NCBI GenBank assembly: GCA_003552765.1
Contig: PUOI01000117.1
Span: forward strand, 1-17,983
DNA: 17,983 nucleotides
Source: Candidatus Hydrogenedentota bacterium
GTDB lineage: Bacteria > Hydrogenedentota > Hydrogenedentia > Hydrogenedentales > SLHB01
Direction of reading: 5' to 3'
Shown: positions 3,817 to 16,286 of the stretch, one piece after another
Numbering within the stretch: position 1 is the stretch's first letter
Layout: each line of letters begins with the position of its first letter
The notes under the pieces: model-generated
The model's database searches: none
Told to the model about the DNA's origin: nothing
What the model saw: only the letters and a program-made list of their open reading frames with translations
Position numbers and translations under genes: made by a program

Positions 3817-5463
<1,647 letters not shown>

Positions 5464-5479: not shown

Positions 5480-5770
5480 TTAGTTTTCAATGACGGCCAG
5501 CACATCGTCTTCACGAAGAATCAGATGATCCTCGCCGTCGAGCTTCACTTCCGTACCCGCGTACTTGCCAATAAGCACGCGATCGCCCTTCTTCACTTCC
5601 AACTCGACCCGCTTTCCGTCCTCGTCAAGACGGCCCGGTCCCACCTCGATGACCTTGGCTTCCTGGGGCTTTTCCTTAGCCGTATCGGGGATGATAATCC
5701 CGCCCCGCACCTGTTCATCGGCTTCCTCGCGCTTGACTAGAATGCGGTTTGCAAGTGGCCTGACTTTCAT
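5480..5770 (-). CDS. groES: 10 kDa co-chaperonin GroES
   Basis: GroES is the heptameric lid of the GroEL chamber. The 96 residues match the family in length and pattern. [19 protein letters not shown] leads into the mobile-loop segment (about 17-33, including [14 protein letters not shown]). A VGPG turn follows and then the C-terminal strand [15 protein letters not shown]. The ATG at 5770 is preceded on the minus strand by AAGGGAG eight bases upstream. It is first in the groES-groEL operon. The 544 bases upstream carry several regulatory sites described separately. Confidence 0.97.
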
Positions 5771-5826
5771 GATCCATTCTCCCTTCTTAACATTGCCTTG
5801 GGTGTACTGCGTCGAATTTCGCCTAG

Positions 5827-5855
5827 CTTATACACTGCGCCCGCGGCCTTGACAG
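5827..5855 (-). promoter_or_regulatory. Possible sigma-70 promoter for groES
   Basis: On the minus strand CTGTCA (5855-5850) lies 17 bp from TATAAG (5832-5827), matching the -35 and -10 consensus at 4/6 and 5/6 positions. Transcription would start near 5820, giving a leader of about 50 nt before the groES ATG. It would supply basal expression. Such matches also arise by chance. Confidence 0.45.
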
Positions 5856-5964
5856 GACGCAAGCGTCGAATAAGAGACAGGCGCGAACTACCCTCTCCCA
5901 CACAGGGGAGAAGAGCGCCACGGAACGGGGCTCCTATGCCCCTGACTCGTTCCGCTGACAAGGA

Positions 5965-5988
5965 TACAGCAACCAGCGTGCCAACATT
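5965..5988 (-). promoter_or_regulatory. Sigma-54 (-24/-12) promoter of groESL
   Basis: On the minus strand the core reads TGGCACG-CTGG-TTGCT. The -24 GG and the -12 GC are separated by exactly 10 bp. The flanks also fit: AATGT precedes and GTA follows, so every constrained position of the published 24-base sigma-54 consensus (mrNrYTGGCACG-N4-TTGCWNNw) is satisfied. The -12 C is at 5969, putting the start near 5957, 187 nt upstream of the groES ATG and pointing at it. Such promoters depend on a bacterial enhancer-binding protein, and suitable upstream dyads are present. Confidence 0.85.
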
Positions 5989-6059
5989 GGCAAGATGCTG
6001 TAAGTCCTTGTGACACAGGTGCTTATGAGGATTCGAATGGTGAGGGTGTTGGGGTGGTT

Positions 6060-6072
6060 TGCCCAAATGGCA
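6060..6072 (-). promoter_or_regulatory. Upstream dyad 1 (putative enhancer site)
   Basis: On the minus strand this reads TGCCA-TTT-GGGCA, one of three related dyads. Its centre (6066) is about 109 bp upstream of the predicted sigma-54 start, a normal distance for an enhancer-binding protein site. Confidence 0.6.
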
Positions 6073-6112
6073 AGCTGATGGAAACGGAGGGAGTTCTTGG
6101 AGGGGCGGTGTG

Positions 6113-6125
6113 TGCCAAAGTGGCA
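6113..6125 (-). promoter_or_regulatory. Upstream dyad 2 (putative enhancer site)
   Basis: On the minus strand this is TGCCA-CTT-TGGCA, a perfect 5-bp inverted repeat. It is centred at 6119, 53 bp from dyad 1 and about 162 bp upstream of the predicted sigma-54 start. Five bases separate it from the CIRCE element. Confidence 0.6.
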
Positions 6126-6130
6126 AACTG

Positions 6131-6157
6131 GTAGCACTCGCTCGATATGAGTGCTAA
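6131..6157 (-). promoter_or_regulatory. CIRCE operator (HrcA binding site)
   Basis: On the minus strand this is TTAGCACTC-N9-GAGTGCTAC, matching the CIRCE consensus TTAGCACTC-N9-GAGTGCTAA at 17 of 18 arm positions. CIRCE is the operator of the heat-shock repressor HrcA and is usually found at groESL or grpE/dnaK promoters. Here it lies about 360 bp upstream of groES, outside both candidate promoters and between dyads 2 and 3. I see no convincing sigma-70 -35/-10 pair overlapping it. Confidence 0.93.
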
Positions 6158-6164
6158 TAAGGGG

Positions 6165-6177
6165 CGCCATTTTGGCA
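6165..6177 (-). promoter_or_regulatory. Upstream dyad 3 (putative enhancer site)
   Basis: On the minus strand this is TGCCA-AAA-TGGCG. It is centred at 6171, 52 bp from dyad 2 and about 214 bp upstream of the predicted sigma-54 start, seven bases beyond the CIRCE element. Confidence 0.5.
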
Positions 6178-6218
6178 GAGCCGCCTGGGCGCATTCCGCT
6201 TCAAGACGAAAGGACGGA

Positions 6219-6239
6219 GCCGGTTACGCGATAACCGGC
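6219..6239 (-). terminator. Hairpin, possible terminator of the ThuA-like operon
   Basis: GCCGGTTA (6219-6226) and TAACCGGC (6232-6239) form a perfect 8-bp stem with loop CGCGA. Read on the minus strand it is followed by TCCGTCCTTTCGTCTT, pyrimidine-rich but without a clean T-run. It lies about 75 bp past the end of the last ThuA-like gene. Confidence 0.5.
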
Positions 6240-6265
6240 CCCGTCTGGTCAGCGACTCTTGAGCA

Positions 6266-6314: not shown

Positions 6315-7265
6315 TTACTCGTCATATTGCTCGCGCCATTCATTCACGAGATTCTCCCATCGCTCGATATCATAGTCATCGGGCATGTCGTAGTCTTGGT
6401 TTTCCAGAAGGTCTTCAATGGTGACGTCGCCCACGGGAACGCCGCCCTCGGGAATGTCAGCGCCAGCGGCCCAAGCGATGGCGTTGAGCACCTGGCCGCG
6501 GAACATGGGGTGTCCCCAATTCCAATGCCAGTGCCCGCCGGTGAATCCGAAGCTCCGGCCGCCATCCTCGCGCTCGTAGGCCCACGCCACATGCTGGATC
6601 TCGCCGCGTTCAAGGACCGCCTCGCGCACGTGCGGGTTGTTGCTGAAGGGCCCGTCATCGCGGTCCAGGGTTTCTTCAGGCGGATGATCGCTCATAATCG
6701 GCGTCACGCCTTCCATGTCTTCGCGGAAGCGCATGTGGTAGTACCACTCATCTTCCAGCGTATAGGGTTCGATGCCGTTGTTAATGGGGTGATCGGCCAG
6801 CTCCGGATCTTCAATCGTCCAGAACGGATTCACGGCCCAATGGGGCTCCTTGTTTCCGCCAAGCCATTCGACCCATTCATCATCCGCTTCCCCCGACGGG
6901 AAGGCCCAGTGCATGATGACGAATCCAATCCCGTCGTTGATCATCTCTTCAAGTTCGTCGAGATGAGGCAACGCGGGATGACCGCCACCGCCATCGGCGT
7001 AGATCACAATGGCGTCCGCGCCCTCGAAGGCGTCCGGATCATCGGGCCACCCATCCTGGTGCACGACCGAGGTGACGCCCTCATGCTCGTTGAGCAAGTC
7101 ACTGAGGAGGAGACACCCCGCGTTGTGTTCATGGGCGCCGTAGCCGTGACTGGGCGTGCCCGCCACGAACACCACGTTCTTTTCCTCCGCGTGTGCGGCG
7201 CCGCTCCCCAATACGAGCGCTCCAAGTGCGCCAAGGGTCAGTGCTGCTGCTAGACTGGTTCGCAT
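6315..7265 (-). CDS. Secreted ThuA-like domain protein, copy 1
   Basis: This is a 316-residue protein with a signal peptide. A short basic start (MRTS) is followed by a hydrophobic stretch, with likely cleavage after AHA (residue 26). The mature part fits the ThuA family (trehalose-utilisation-like, a glutamine-amidotransferase-like fold). It shows FVAGTPSHGYG near the N-terminus, a GWPDDP loop, ADGGGGHPALPHL, GGNKEPHW, DEWYYHMRF, FGFTGGHWHWNWG and a LNAIAWAAG helix. The His/Trp-rich clusters suggest a metal or sugar site, but no biochemical function can be read from sequence. A C-terminal extension of about 45 acidic residues follows the core domain. The ATG at 7265 has AAAGGAGA upstream. 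It is a tandem duplicate of the gene 31 bp upstream and presumably co-transcribed. Action would be outside the cytoplasmic membrane. Confidence 0.85.
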   Translation of the reverse strand: MRTSLAAALTLGALGALVLGSGAAHAEEKNVVFVAGTPSHGYGAHEHNAGCLLLSDLLNEHEGVTSVVHQDGWPDDPDAFEGADAIVIYADGGGGHPALPHLDELEEMINDGIGFVIMHWAFPSGEADDEWVEWLGGNKEPHWAVNPFWTIEDPELADHPINNGIEPYTLEDEWYYHMRFREDMEGVTPIMSDHPPEETLDRDDGPFSNNPHVREAVLERGEIQHVAWAYEREDGGRSFGFTGGHWHWNWGHPMFRGQVLNAIAWAAGADIPEGGVPVGDVTIEDLLENQDYDMPDDYDIERWENLVNEWREQYDE

Positions 7266-7296: not shown

Positions 7297-8256
7297 TTAC
7301 TCTCCGAATGTTTCGTTCCATTCGTTTACAAGATTCTCCCAGTGTTCCAGGTCGAAGTCCTCCGGCATTTCGGAGTCTTGGTTGGCCAGGAGGTCCTCAA
7401 TGGTGATCACGCCAACGGGAACCCCGCCTTCCGGGATTTCGGCGTGCGCGGTCCATGCGATGGCGTTGAGCACCTGGCGGCGGAACATGGGATGACCCCA
7501 GTTCCAATGCCAATGCGCGCCAGTGAACCCGAAACCCCGGCCGCCGTTCTCGCGTTCCGAGGCCCAGGCCACATGCTGGATCTCGCCCCGTTCCAGGACG
7601 GTCTCGCGGACGTGCGGGTTGCCGCTATAGAAGCCGTCCTCCCGGTCCAGCGTCTCTTCGGGCGGGTGATCGCTCGTAATGGGCGTGATGCCTTCCATGT
7701 CTTCGCGAAACCGCATGTGATAGTACCACTCATCGTCAATCGTGAAGGACTCGACACCGTTGTTGATGGGGTGGCTGGCCAACTCCGGATCCGTGATGAT
7801 CCAGTGCGGATTGACCGACCAATGGGGCTCCTTGTTCCCGCCTACCCAAGCCAGCCATTCATCGCCCGCCTCATCCGGCGGAATGCCCGTGGCCCAGTGA
7901 ATCGCCACAAGCCCAACCCCCTCGTCCATCAGTTCGCCGAGTTGGTCCAGATGGGGCAAGGCGGGATGGCCGCCGCCTCCGTCGGCAAAGATGACGATTG
8001 AATCGGCATCGTCGAAGGCGCCGGGATCCTCTGGCCACCCGTTGTGATGCACCTCCGAAATGATACCGTCATGATGTTCGTTGAGCAAGTCACTCAGGAG
8101 GAGACATCCCGCATTGTGCTCGTGCTCGCCGTAGCCGTGGCTGGGCGCGCCCGCGACAAACACGACCTTCTTTTCCTCCGCGTAAGAGGCGCTGCTTCCA
8201 AGCAAGAAGGCTGCAAGCGCGCCGAGGGTCAGTACCGCTGTGAAGCTGTGCCGCAT
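7297..8256 (-). CDS. Secreted ThuA-like domain protein, copy 2
   Basis: This 319-residue paralogue of the neighbouring downstream gene is roughly three-quarters identical by eye along its entire length, including the C-terminal acidic extension ending in WENLVNEW plus a few residues. The start is taken at ATG 8256, which has AAGGGAG upstream and begins a clean signal peptide (MRHSFTAVLTLGALAAFLL, cleavage after SYA at about 26). An in-frame ATG 26 codons further upstream would spoil that signal. Shared motifs include FVAGAPSHGYG, ADGGGGHPALPHL, GGNKEPHWSVNP, DEWYYHMRF and FGFTGAHWHWNWG. Copy 2 has short insertions relative to copy 1 near residues 60 and 125. A TACAAT resembling a -10 lies upstream on the minus strand but lacks a clear -35. 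The substrate is unknown. Confidence 0.85.
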   Translation of the reverse strand: MRHSFTAVLTLGALAAFLLGSSASYAEEKKVVFVAGAPSHGYGEHEHNAGCLLLSDLLNEHHDGIISEVHHNGWPEDPGAFDDADSIVIFADGGGGHPALPHLDQLGELMDEGVGLVAIHWATGIPPDEAGDEWLAWVGGNKEPHWSVNPHWIITDPELASHPINNGVESFTIDDEWYYHMRFREDMEGITPITSDHPPEETLDREDGFYSGNPHVRETVLERGEIQHVAWASERENGGRGFGFTGAHWHWNWGHPMFRRQVLNAIAWTAHAEIPEGGVPVGVITIEDLLANQDSEMPEDFDLEHWENLVNEWNETFGE

Positions 8257-8395
8257 TGGTCGTACTCCCTTCATGGTAATGCGTAACTTCGTTGCCCTAA
8301 TTGTAGCGCACACTTTTGCATGCGGATGCGCCACATATCCGCGTTCCCGATTCTCCGGCTAGTTCTTTCTGGGCCACAAGGCGGCTGCGTGGGCC

Positions 8396-15260: not shown

Positions 15261-16286
15261 ATGCAAATCGTAAAGGTGCGCCTGAGGAAGCCTACGCGGG
15301 TCTACTCGTTTCTATGCGAGGACATCGAACTTAAACGCGACGAACACTGCATCGTGGAAACCGAGCGCGGGCTCGAGTTTGGGTCGTGTGTCCTGCCGCC
15401 CGAGGCCTGTCCCGAAGAGGACAAGAATCAGTACTCCATGCACGTCCTCCGAAGGGCTCATGAAGAGGACGAGGCCGATTTCGCCAAGATCCTTGACGAC
15501 GAGGCGAAGGCCCGGACCATCTGCCAGGAGTGCATCCAAACCCGGCGGCTTCCCATGAAGATTGTGGACGCCGAGTATGCGTTCGATCGTCATAAAGTCG
15601 TCCTCTACTTCACGGCGGATGAGCGGGTGGATTTCCGGGATCTGGTTCGGGAATTGGCGAAACACCTCAAGACCCGGATTGAACTCCGGCATATTCAGGT
15701 GCGGGATGAAGCCAAACTTATCGGGGGACTCGGCGTATGCGGGCGCGAACTATGTTGCAGCACGTGGTTGCGCGACTTCAAGCCCATCTCCATGAAGATG
15801 GCCAAGCGCCAGAACCTTTCGCTCAATCCCGCCAAGATCAGCGGCCAATGCGGCCGGTTGTTGTGCTGCCTCAGTTATGAGAACGAACTTTATCAGAACA
15901 AGAAGTCCATTGTGATGGCGCAACGCGAGGCCGAGCAGGCCGCGGAAGCCGCCCGGCGCGAGGCGCAAGGCGAAGACGCCGAGCCCGAGTGGCTGGAAGA
16001 TCCTTTCCCAGACGCGGAAATCTACACCGCCTATGCGGGCGGGCGGCCGCCCTCGTTGGAGGAATTGGAGGATCCGGGGGATGCGGGTCCGTCGGCCGTG
16101 GCGGATCTCAGCGCGGGCGACAGCGTTGAGGAGGACGGCGAGGAAACGGAAGAGACCGCTGCCGATAAACAGGATTCCCCGGAAAAGTCCAGGCGCTCGA
16201 AAGGCCGGCGGGGCAAGAAGCGGGGCAACCGGAGAAGACGCGGCGGCAAGGGTGGTTCGGGTTCGAACGGATCGGGCGGCAAATGA
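15261..16286 (+). CDS. ricT: PSP1-domain protein RicT/YaaT with long charged tail
   Basis: In Bacillus, RicT (YaaT) works with RicA and RicF in a complex with iron-sulfur clusters that helps RNase Y mature mRNAs. The start is ATG 15261 with GGGAGG just upstream; a TTG at 15246 has no ribosome site. Of the 341 residues, about 1-215 are the PSP1-type core. Cysteine clusters occur at 160/165/166 (GVCGRELCC) and 197/202/203 (QCGRLLCC), the positions that carry the cluster in Bacillus. An extra CxxC lies at 88/91. Residues from about 221 are a long acidic, Ala/Glu-rich stretch ending in a strongly basic Arg/Lys/Gly tail (about 310-341), probably disordered and suited to binding RNA. No RicA or RicF is visible. 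The holB-ricT order matches Bacillus. Confidence 0.9.
   Translation: MQIVKVRLRKPTRVYSFLCEDIELKRDEHCIVETERGLEFGSCVLPPEACPEEDKNQYSMHVLRRAHEEDEADFAKILDDEAKARTICQECIQTRRLPMKIVDAEYAFDRHKVVLYFTADERVDFRDLVRELAKHLKTRIELRHIQVRDEAKLIGGLGVCGRELCCSTWLRDFKPISMKMAKRQNLSLNPAKISGQCGRLLCCLSYENELYQNKKSIVMAQREAEQAAEAARREAQGEDAEPEWLEDPFPDAEIYTAYAGGRPPSLEELEDPGDAGPSAVADLSAGDSVEEDGEETEETAADKQDSPEKSRRSKGRRGKKRGNRRRRGGKGGSGSNGSGGK

Follow-up and report, generated by a model that had tools for sequence, protein, structure and literature searches.

The groESL operon of this Candidatus Hydrogenedentota bacterium, and of most members of its family, is likely transcribed by σ54 RNA polymerase under the control of an orphan NtrC-like regulator acting from upstream dyads, as judged by comparison of genomes. 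According to this model, σ54 RNA polymerase would transcribe groESL from a −24/−12 element at positions 5983 to 5968 of the window (the whole stretch of 17,983 nt analyzed here), and the regulator would bind TGCC-N5-GGCA dyads at 6060 to 6177, loop to the promoter and open it with ATP. The σ54 promoter stands at the position of an order-wide TTGACA-N18-TATTAT/CIRCE σ70 promoter. The regulator carries its σ54 contact loop, the GAFTGA motif, only in lineages that have the σ54 promoter; in the rest of the order, these dyads flank a σ70/CIRCE promoter and are probably bound by an ortholog that has no GAFTGA. The operon and the element lie in the window as follows.

3817 to 5448, minus strand: groEL, the downstream gene of the operon (PF00118, Cpn60_TCP1).
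5480 to 5770, minus strand: groES (PF00166, Cpn10).
5968 to 5983, minus strand: σ54 −24/−12 element TGGCACG-N4-TTGCT, 0 mismatches; at least 10/12 positions in 15/18 same-family groES upstream regions.
5979 to 5992, no strand assigned: imperfect dyad TGCCAACATTGGCA, whose lower-coordinate half (minus-strand TTGGCA) overlaps the −24 element.

The sequence TGGCACGCTGGTTGCT at 5983 to 5968 on the minus strand matches TGGCACGN4TTGCT with 0 mismatches and keeps the GG-N10-GC spacing, in agreement with the sequence-only reading, which had described a perfect minus-strand element directed at groES. It is the sole perfect match to the motif in the window. The C of its −12 part is position 5969, from which we infer a transcription start at about 5957, 187 nt before the groES ATG (5770). 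The dyad overlapping the −24 element is possibly incidental, with a spacing 1 base off that of the dyads farther upstream. Relaxed forms of the motif show no enrichment across the window: when as many as 3 mismatches are allowed, 22 matches are found versus 18.1 expected over the 17,983 nt, and a shorter relaxed pattern gives 20 matches versus 19.8 expected. Since relaxed matches stand at background level, the case must rest on genome-wide and comparative evidence.

The window's draft genome (3.29 Mb in 640 contigs, 83% complete) contains one rpoN gene (PF04552, E value of 1.1e-63, 492-amino-acid open frame) and 16 matches to the σ54 activator domain, 12 of them strong (E value of 5.8e-34 or better). 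The pattern TGGCACN5TTGCW occurs 5 times in this genome versus 3 times for the reversed-pattern control, a small margin, and the relaxed TGGCN7TTGCW occurs 95 times versus 49 for its reversed control. All 5 perfect matches have G as their seventh base and end in T (TGGCACG...TTGCT). Besides the one at groESL, they precede amtB, glnB-glnA, a pair of hsp20 genes, and an unclear open frame followed by a gene for a MoxR-type ATPase (L002, positions 1501 to 1516), the glutamine synthetase after the P-II gene having been identified from sequence reading. Classical σ54 targets (amtB and glnB-glnA) thus lie behind two of the other perfect elements, and chaperone operons (groESL and the hsp20 pair) lie behind 2 of the 5. 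The presence of rpoN, of activators and of perfect elements at amtB and glnB-glnA suggests that textbook-type σ54 promoters appear to be in use in this bacterium. The assignment of the groESL motif to σ54, originally made from the motif itself, is strengthened by the rpoN gene, the 12 strong activator-domain matches and the company that the motif keeps genome-wide, as well as by its conservation.

To place the element among relatives, 119 genomes were searched, groES was found in 106 of them, and the upstream regions of 56 order-level groES loci were compared, the window's own included, with 18 loci belonging to the window's family. The comparison does not include the groES gene of G059, which abuts a contig edge and so has nothing upstream, or the additional groES of G009 (55% identical), and three of the loci have short upstream sequence (189 bp in L052, 264 bp in L054 and 283 bp in L057). 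In this alignment, which had been set beforehand as the check, the −24/−12 element is kept at 10/12 positions or better, with both GG and GC, in 15 of the 18 family regions, between −141 and −213 relative to the ATG. The exceptions are G019 (9/12), G009 and G012. No region from the order's other families has it (0/38), and it is found at 1 of 80 loci of other named organisms. The opposite strand gives 1/18 in the family and 0/38 in the other families, and reversed sequence gives 0/18 and 0/38. An alignment of 16 sites from the family shows no variation in GG or TTGC, GG and GC having been selection criteria. A chance match would account for relaxed matches at expectation in the window and for a genome-wide count of 5 versus 3 in the control, but it is hardly credible for an element that recurs in 15/18 family members between −141 and −213, even though its spacer can vary freely, and in 0/38 relatives, when opposite-strand and reversed controls yield 1/18 and 0/18. 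This contrast between the family and the controls makes the chance reading untenable, and groESL very probably has a conserved σ54 promoter.

The region upstream of this promoter contains several further elements, to which a weak σ70-like pair downstream of it can be added.

5827 to 5855, minus strand: weak σ70-like pair CTGTCA-N17-TATAAG, 9/12, a possible second start near groES.
6060 to 6072, minus strand: dyad U2, TGCCATTTGGGCA, candidate activator site, starting 89 bp upstream of the −24 element.
6113 to 6125, minus strand: dyad U1, TGCCACTTTGGCA, candidate activator site, 53 bp from U2.
6131 to 6157, no strand assigned: CIRCE operator with one mismatch (0 in 200 shuffles), within the rigid composite TTRGCACTC-N12-TGCTAA-N5-U1.
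6165 to 6177, minus strand: dyad U0, TGCCAAAATGGCG, a third copy with one mismatch, 52 bp from U1.
6213 to 6245, minus strand: intrinsic-terminator-like hairpin of 15 pairs that follows the ThuA-domain gene lying upstream (expected number of hairpins of this kind in the region, 0.6).

The hairpin is the upstream limit of the groES regulatory region. Beyond it, two tandem, similar ThuA-domain genes (PF06283) lie on the same strand at 6315 to 7265 and 7297 to 8334, a duplication.

The CIRCE operator had escaped the sequence-only reading, as had U0, U1, U2, the hairpin and the weak σ70-like pair. The contrast which that reading drew with CIRCE-controlled chaperonins turns out to be too simple, given that a near-perfect CIRCE shares the intergenic region with the σ54 promoter, 174 bp farther upstream than the −24 element when measured from start to start. 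Both the CIRCE/HrcA operator (TTAGCACTC-N9-GAGTGCTAA) and an hrcA gene are present in the genome, where perfect CIRCEs precede a second groEL and hrcA (L047 and L048, each at 1501 to 1527). HrcA control and σ54 chaperone control coexist in this genome. Is groESL, then, mainly run by σ70, with or without HrcA and CIRCE, and the σ54 element minor, poised or silencing, the last if σ54 holoenzyme blocked a σ70 start? Such a reading can draw on the one-mismatch CIRCE at 6131 to 6157, on the perfect CIRCEs at hrcA and the second groEL, on the weak CTGTCA-N17-TATAAG pair at 5855 to 5827, and on five family members in which a σ70-like pair overlaps the σ54 element. We nevertheless consider it improbable. 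In the order's other families, CIRCE (≤2 mismatches) is found at 33 of 38 groES loci, and in 33/33 of these a σ70-like promoter of at least 8/12 runs into it, 30 of them being TTGACA-N17/18-TATTAT. Membership in the CIRCE/HrcA regulon is defined by such an operator next to a core promoter, but in the window the CIRCE lies far upstream of both possible starts, and the sole 9/12 σ70-like pair of the region is far off, at 5855 to 5827. That pair falls outside the stricter σ70 scan rules (its last base is not T), an equally good pair occurs in 17.6% of region shuffles, and none of 17 family relatives has a counterpart at that position; no site between 5700 and 6330 passes the stricter scan. Moreover, in most other family members the right arm of the CIRCE has decayed and the σ54 element is kept.

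The composite TTRGCACTC-N12-TGCTAA is found a fixed 32 bp before U1, with 13 to 15 of 15 positions matching, in all 16 family regions that have U1, and the upstream element passes a two-mismatch CIRCE test in three family regions, the window's included. The idea that the window's CIRCE is what remains of a core CIRCE that was displaced was also considered; this was dropped because a similar composite (12 to 13 of 15 positions) occurs at the same 32-bp offset outside the family, in G043, G040, G045 and G052 among 15 non-family loci tested.

Measured from the −24 element, the dyads U2, U1 and U0 start at upstream distances of 89, 142 and 194 bp, within the range for looping; the regulator would bind them and loop to the promoter. 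Exact matches to TGCC-N5-GGCA in the window are U2 and U1 only. Within the family, U1 (TGCCATTTTGGCA) is present in 16/16 and U2 in 14/16 regions long enough to judge, U2 being absent from G009 and G012. Across 25 family genomes, the pattern TGCCANTTTGGCA is matched exactly 23 times; 15 of these matches fall at 13 groES loci, and the window's own genome has a single match, at groES. A reversed control yields 27 matches versus these 23; the pattern itself is therefore not commoner, and placement at groES, not dyad frequency, is the telling point. A wider dyad regulon was considered and rejected: 6 of the 8 exact matches away from groES are TGCCAGTTTGGCA, their contexts look unrelated, and, with the control at 27, they are read as chance. 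Outside the family, a dyad precedes groES in 12 of 13 genomes that encode the regulator ortholog versus 8 of 25 that do not (P = 5e-4).

The spacing of the dyads was measured on fitted sites only, in 14 related family loci. U1 and U2 are 51 to 55 bp apart in 12 of them and 43 bp apart in 2, and the distance from U2 to the start of the −24 element is 89 to 92 bp in 4 loci, 99 to 103 bp in 9 and 112 bp in 1. A downstream dyad, which the window does not have, is present in 11 of the 14, at 56 bp (1 locus), 66 to 67 bp (2 loci) or 75 to 79 bp (8 loci) from the −24 element. These spacings shift in ~10-bp steps, which is suggestive of helical phasing and would fit proteins that must face the polymerase. 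Known activators bind other sites, namely TGT-N10-ACA for NifA and TGCAC-N7-GTGCA for NtrC-type regulators. There is no NifA site near groES, the window's only two being at 15408 and 16760, and a search of 5770 to 6212 that tolerated 2 mismatches found no NtrC-type site.

σ54 promoters depend on an ATP-driven activator, and 120 activator proteins were extracted from the window's genome and seven relatives. One cluster stands out, with GAFTGA intact in G000 (the window's genome), G004, G007 and G011 and lost in G009, G012 and G032. Its member in the window's genome (G000:C73:2451-3821, L394; PF00158, PF25601, PF02954 and PF00072) combines a Sigma54_activat AAA+ domain having Walker A/B and GAFTGA motifs with a Fis-type HTH and a receiver-like domain. 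Clear orthologs are found in 38 of 68 order genomes: 23 of 25 in the family (not G010 and G014) and, in the remainder of the order, 15 of 43, where G045 is a borderline case. Of the 23 family orthologs, 20 have GAFTGA, those of G009 and G012 have lost it, and the truncated G017 cannot be read at this point; outside the family it is lost in 15/15 orthologs. Among genomes with both the groES upstream region and the regulator in hand, a σ54 site is found at groES in 14 of 15 that are GAFTGA positive (the 15th is G019, at 9/12) versus 0 of 15 that are GAFTGA negative (P = 2e-7, an overstated value of limited weight, since the GAFTGA-positive proteins form one clade [100/99, full-length tree] and the covariation is essentially one evolutionary event). 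Because there is essentially one evolutionary switch, the case for this regulator is strong but falls short of proof. The HTH (LGIGLRTLYRKL) hardly varies within the order, whereas the AAA+ motifs have decayed, a pattern that would fit a protein whose remaining role is to bind DNA. Hence the regulator looks tied to groESL throughout the order, in a σ54 form and in a form without σ54 contact, and we think it quite likely that in the window's bacterium it activates the groESL σ54 promoter.

Alternatively, the σ54 promoter may be real but activated by some other enhancer-binding protein, and the dyads may belong to a different DNA-binding protein. The regulator gene is not linked to groESL, its covariation with the promoter amounts to one event, several other activators are common to the family, 8 non-family genomes have dyads and no clear ortholog, and G010 has the σ54 site and the dyads with no regulator ortholog found in its draft genome (93% complete). 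All of these points would fit another activator, which we regard as unlikely nonetheless, because none of the 10 other motif-bearing activator clusters of the window's genome loses GAFTGA in any ortholog detected in the seven genomes (one reads GAFTDA), because dyads and regulator orthologs co-occur outside the family, and because the HTH is kept where the AAA+ domain has decayed. The linkage scan, made with motifs on eight family loci of 11 to 19.5 kb, flagged no activator; it used the longest non-overlapping frames and is crude, leaving most groEL and groES genes unflagged too. Autoregulation through the dyad was rejected as well, an exact dyad lying upstream of the regulator gene in only 1 of 38 genomes.

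With regard to what the candidate regulator senses, the sequence-only reading had proposed that GroESL production depends on an activator and so on a sensed signal. Dependence on an activator follows from established σ54 biology, and a candidate has been found; the sensed signal finds less backing, given the Glu receivers and the lack of shared neighbors. In ten genomes viewed without profile annotation, neighbors of the regulator gene are shared only in the same-genus pair G011/G022. The phospho-acceptor position holds Glu in 77 and Asp in 27 of 104 scored homologs, and the regulator of the window's genome has Asp. A Glu receiver would possibly make for an always-on or differently sensed regulator. 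Among the best 120 of 307 homologs of the N-terminal part, 86 are GAFTGA-like, one has GVFTGA and 33 have neither; public homologs 96% identical to this part are annotated as Candidatus Hydrogenedentota. Where the regulator family is named among these best 120 of 307, it is only as NtrC-/HydG-like or σ54 regulators, and the present analysis suggests a function for it. The regulator frame of G007 (L327 and L303) contains unread residues and a second activator-like stretch, probably an assembly fault.

The hsp20 pair is a second putative chaperone target of σ54. Its perfect element (L006, 1501 to 1516; G000:C562:5863-5878) stands before two consecutive Hsp20 genes, and orthologs of this pair have a σ54 site (≥10/12) within 1,100 bp upstream at 12 of 14 family loci; of the two loci with no site, one had 465 bp of upstream sequence. 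When all Hsp20 loci examined are taken together, 25 of 30 have the site, one site being common to two loci, versus 2 of 30 on the reverse strand. G009 and G012 keep this hsp20 site though their ortholog of the groESL regulator lacks GAFTGA, so the hsp20 σ54 promoter probably uses an activator other than the groESL candidate. The groESL dyad was looked for at the hsp20 promoter and not found there.

A further question is how promoters of two classes came to occupy one position. G009 and G012 have TTGACA-N18-TATTAT or TATCAT where other family members have the σ54 element, with no core CIRCE, and these σ70-only regions contain GG-N10-GC in the same register (7/12). Overlaps of a σ70-like pair (9 to 10 of 12, N18) with the σ54 element are found in G003, G016, G020, G022 and G023, which span three genera; in all five, the −35 hexamer starts 9 bases ahead of the σ54 element. 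The pair is TTTGCA-N18-TATAGT in G022 and TTGAC[A/G]-N18-TA[A/G]ACT in the other four. By this shared register, the −12 GC corresponds to the TGC preceding the −10 hexamer. An in-place conversion of a σ70/CIRCE promoter (TTGACA-N18...TGC, TATTAT) into a σ54 promoter, with promoter and activator class exchanged as a pair, would account for these arrangements, and we put the odds of it at about even. On this account, the −12 GC of the σ54 promoter would derive from the TGC before the −10 hexamer, the regulator would keep or lose its GAFTGA loop in parallel with the promoter class, its DNA-binding half and binding sites remaining unchanged, and overlapping hybrids would survive in the five genomes of three genera. 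As for the direction of change, the AAA+ tree places the GAFTGA-less regulators in one clade (99/94), and in the full-length tree G009 and G012 are weakly supported (94/29) as neighbors of the GAFTGA clade. Neither tree includes G007, G017 and G024, and the AAA+ tree also omits G001 and G038. The σ54 promoter may have been gained in the family or repeatedly lost elsewhere.

The groES gene of the window is the single groES match in the draft genome, and transcription of its operon appears to require an activator powered by ATP. The supply of chaperonin would accordingly respond to a signal and not just to the release of a repressor. The order offers a natural series, from σ70 with CIRCE through σ70 alone and overlapping promoters to σ54, in which the GAFTGA loop tracks the promoter, and this series makes the movement of a promoter between two unrelated σ classes testable with existing sequences. 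If the conversion is true, a single essential chaperonin operon can exchange the class of its promoter together with that of its activator. In the open-licence papers searched, we met neither a σ54-dependent groESL in Hydrogenedentota nor a paired switch of promoter and activator, with one operon and one regulator family in both states.

groESL is usually taken to be under σ70/CIRCE or σ32 control. The operon studied here resembles the CIRCE/HrcA type in having a CIRCE upstream and an hrcA gene in the genome, but differs from it in that the CIRCE lies far upstream of the predicted start and no σ70 promoter was found beside it. The sequence-only reading had set σ54 control of groESL against the usual control of chaperonin operons; it is not without precedent. 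Precedents exist for the single ingredients, a σ54-dependent groESL and GAFTGA-less NtrC at σ70 promoters. In Bradyrhizobium, groESL3 is one extra copy within the nitrogen-fixation regulon, with NifA as its activator. Bacteroidota belong to the FCB group, in which Hydrogenedentota are also placed. Passages of one study list Bradyrhizobium japonicum groESL3 among RpoN-dependent genes, behind a σ54 −24/−12 promoter as is predicted here (PMC4842269). Unlike that extra copy, the present groES is the only match in its draft genome, has no TGT-N10-ACA upstream, and comes with different dyads and a different candidate activator. Passages of another study describe a predicted σ54 cluster enriched for GroES, GroEL, IbpA, GrpE and DnaK/J in Bacteroidota and Planctomycetota and call GroES of Bacteroides thetaiotaomicron σ54 dependent; the term hydrogenedent is absent from its main text, and these passages describe no activator or promoter conversion (PMC12316311). 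In passages of a third, NtrC proteins of Caulobacter and Rhodobacter without GAFTGA are reported to work with σ70, so that GAFTGA-less orthologs of a σ54 activator are common to those bacteria and the order studied here; there the loss affects a nitrogen regulator, whereas here the presence of GAFTGA tracks the promoter class of groESL (PMC10274813).
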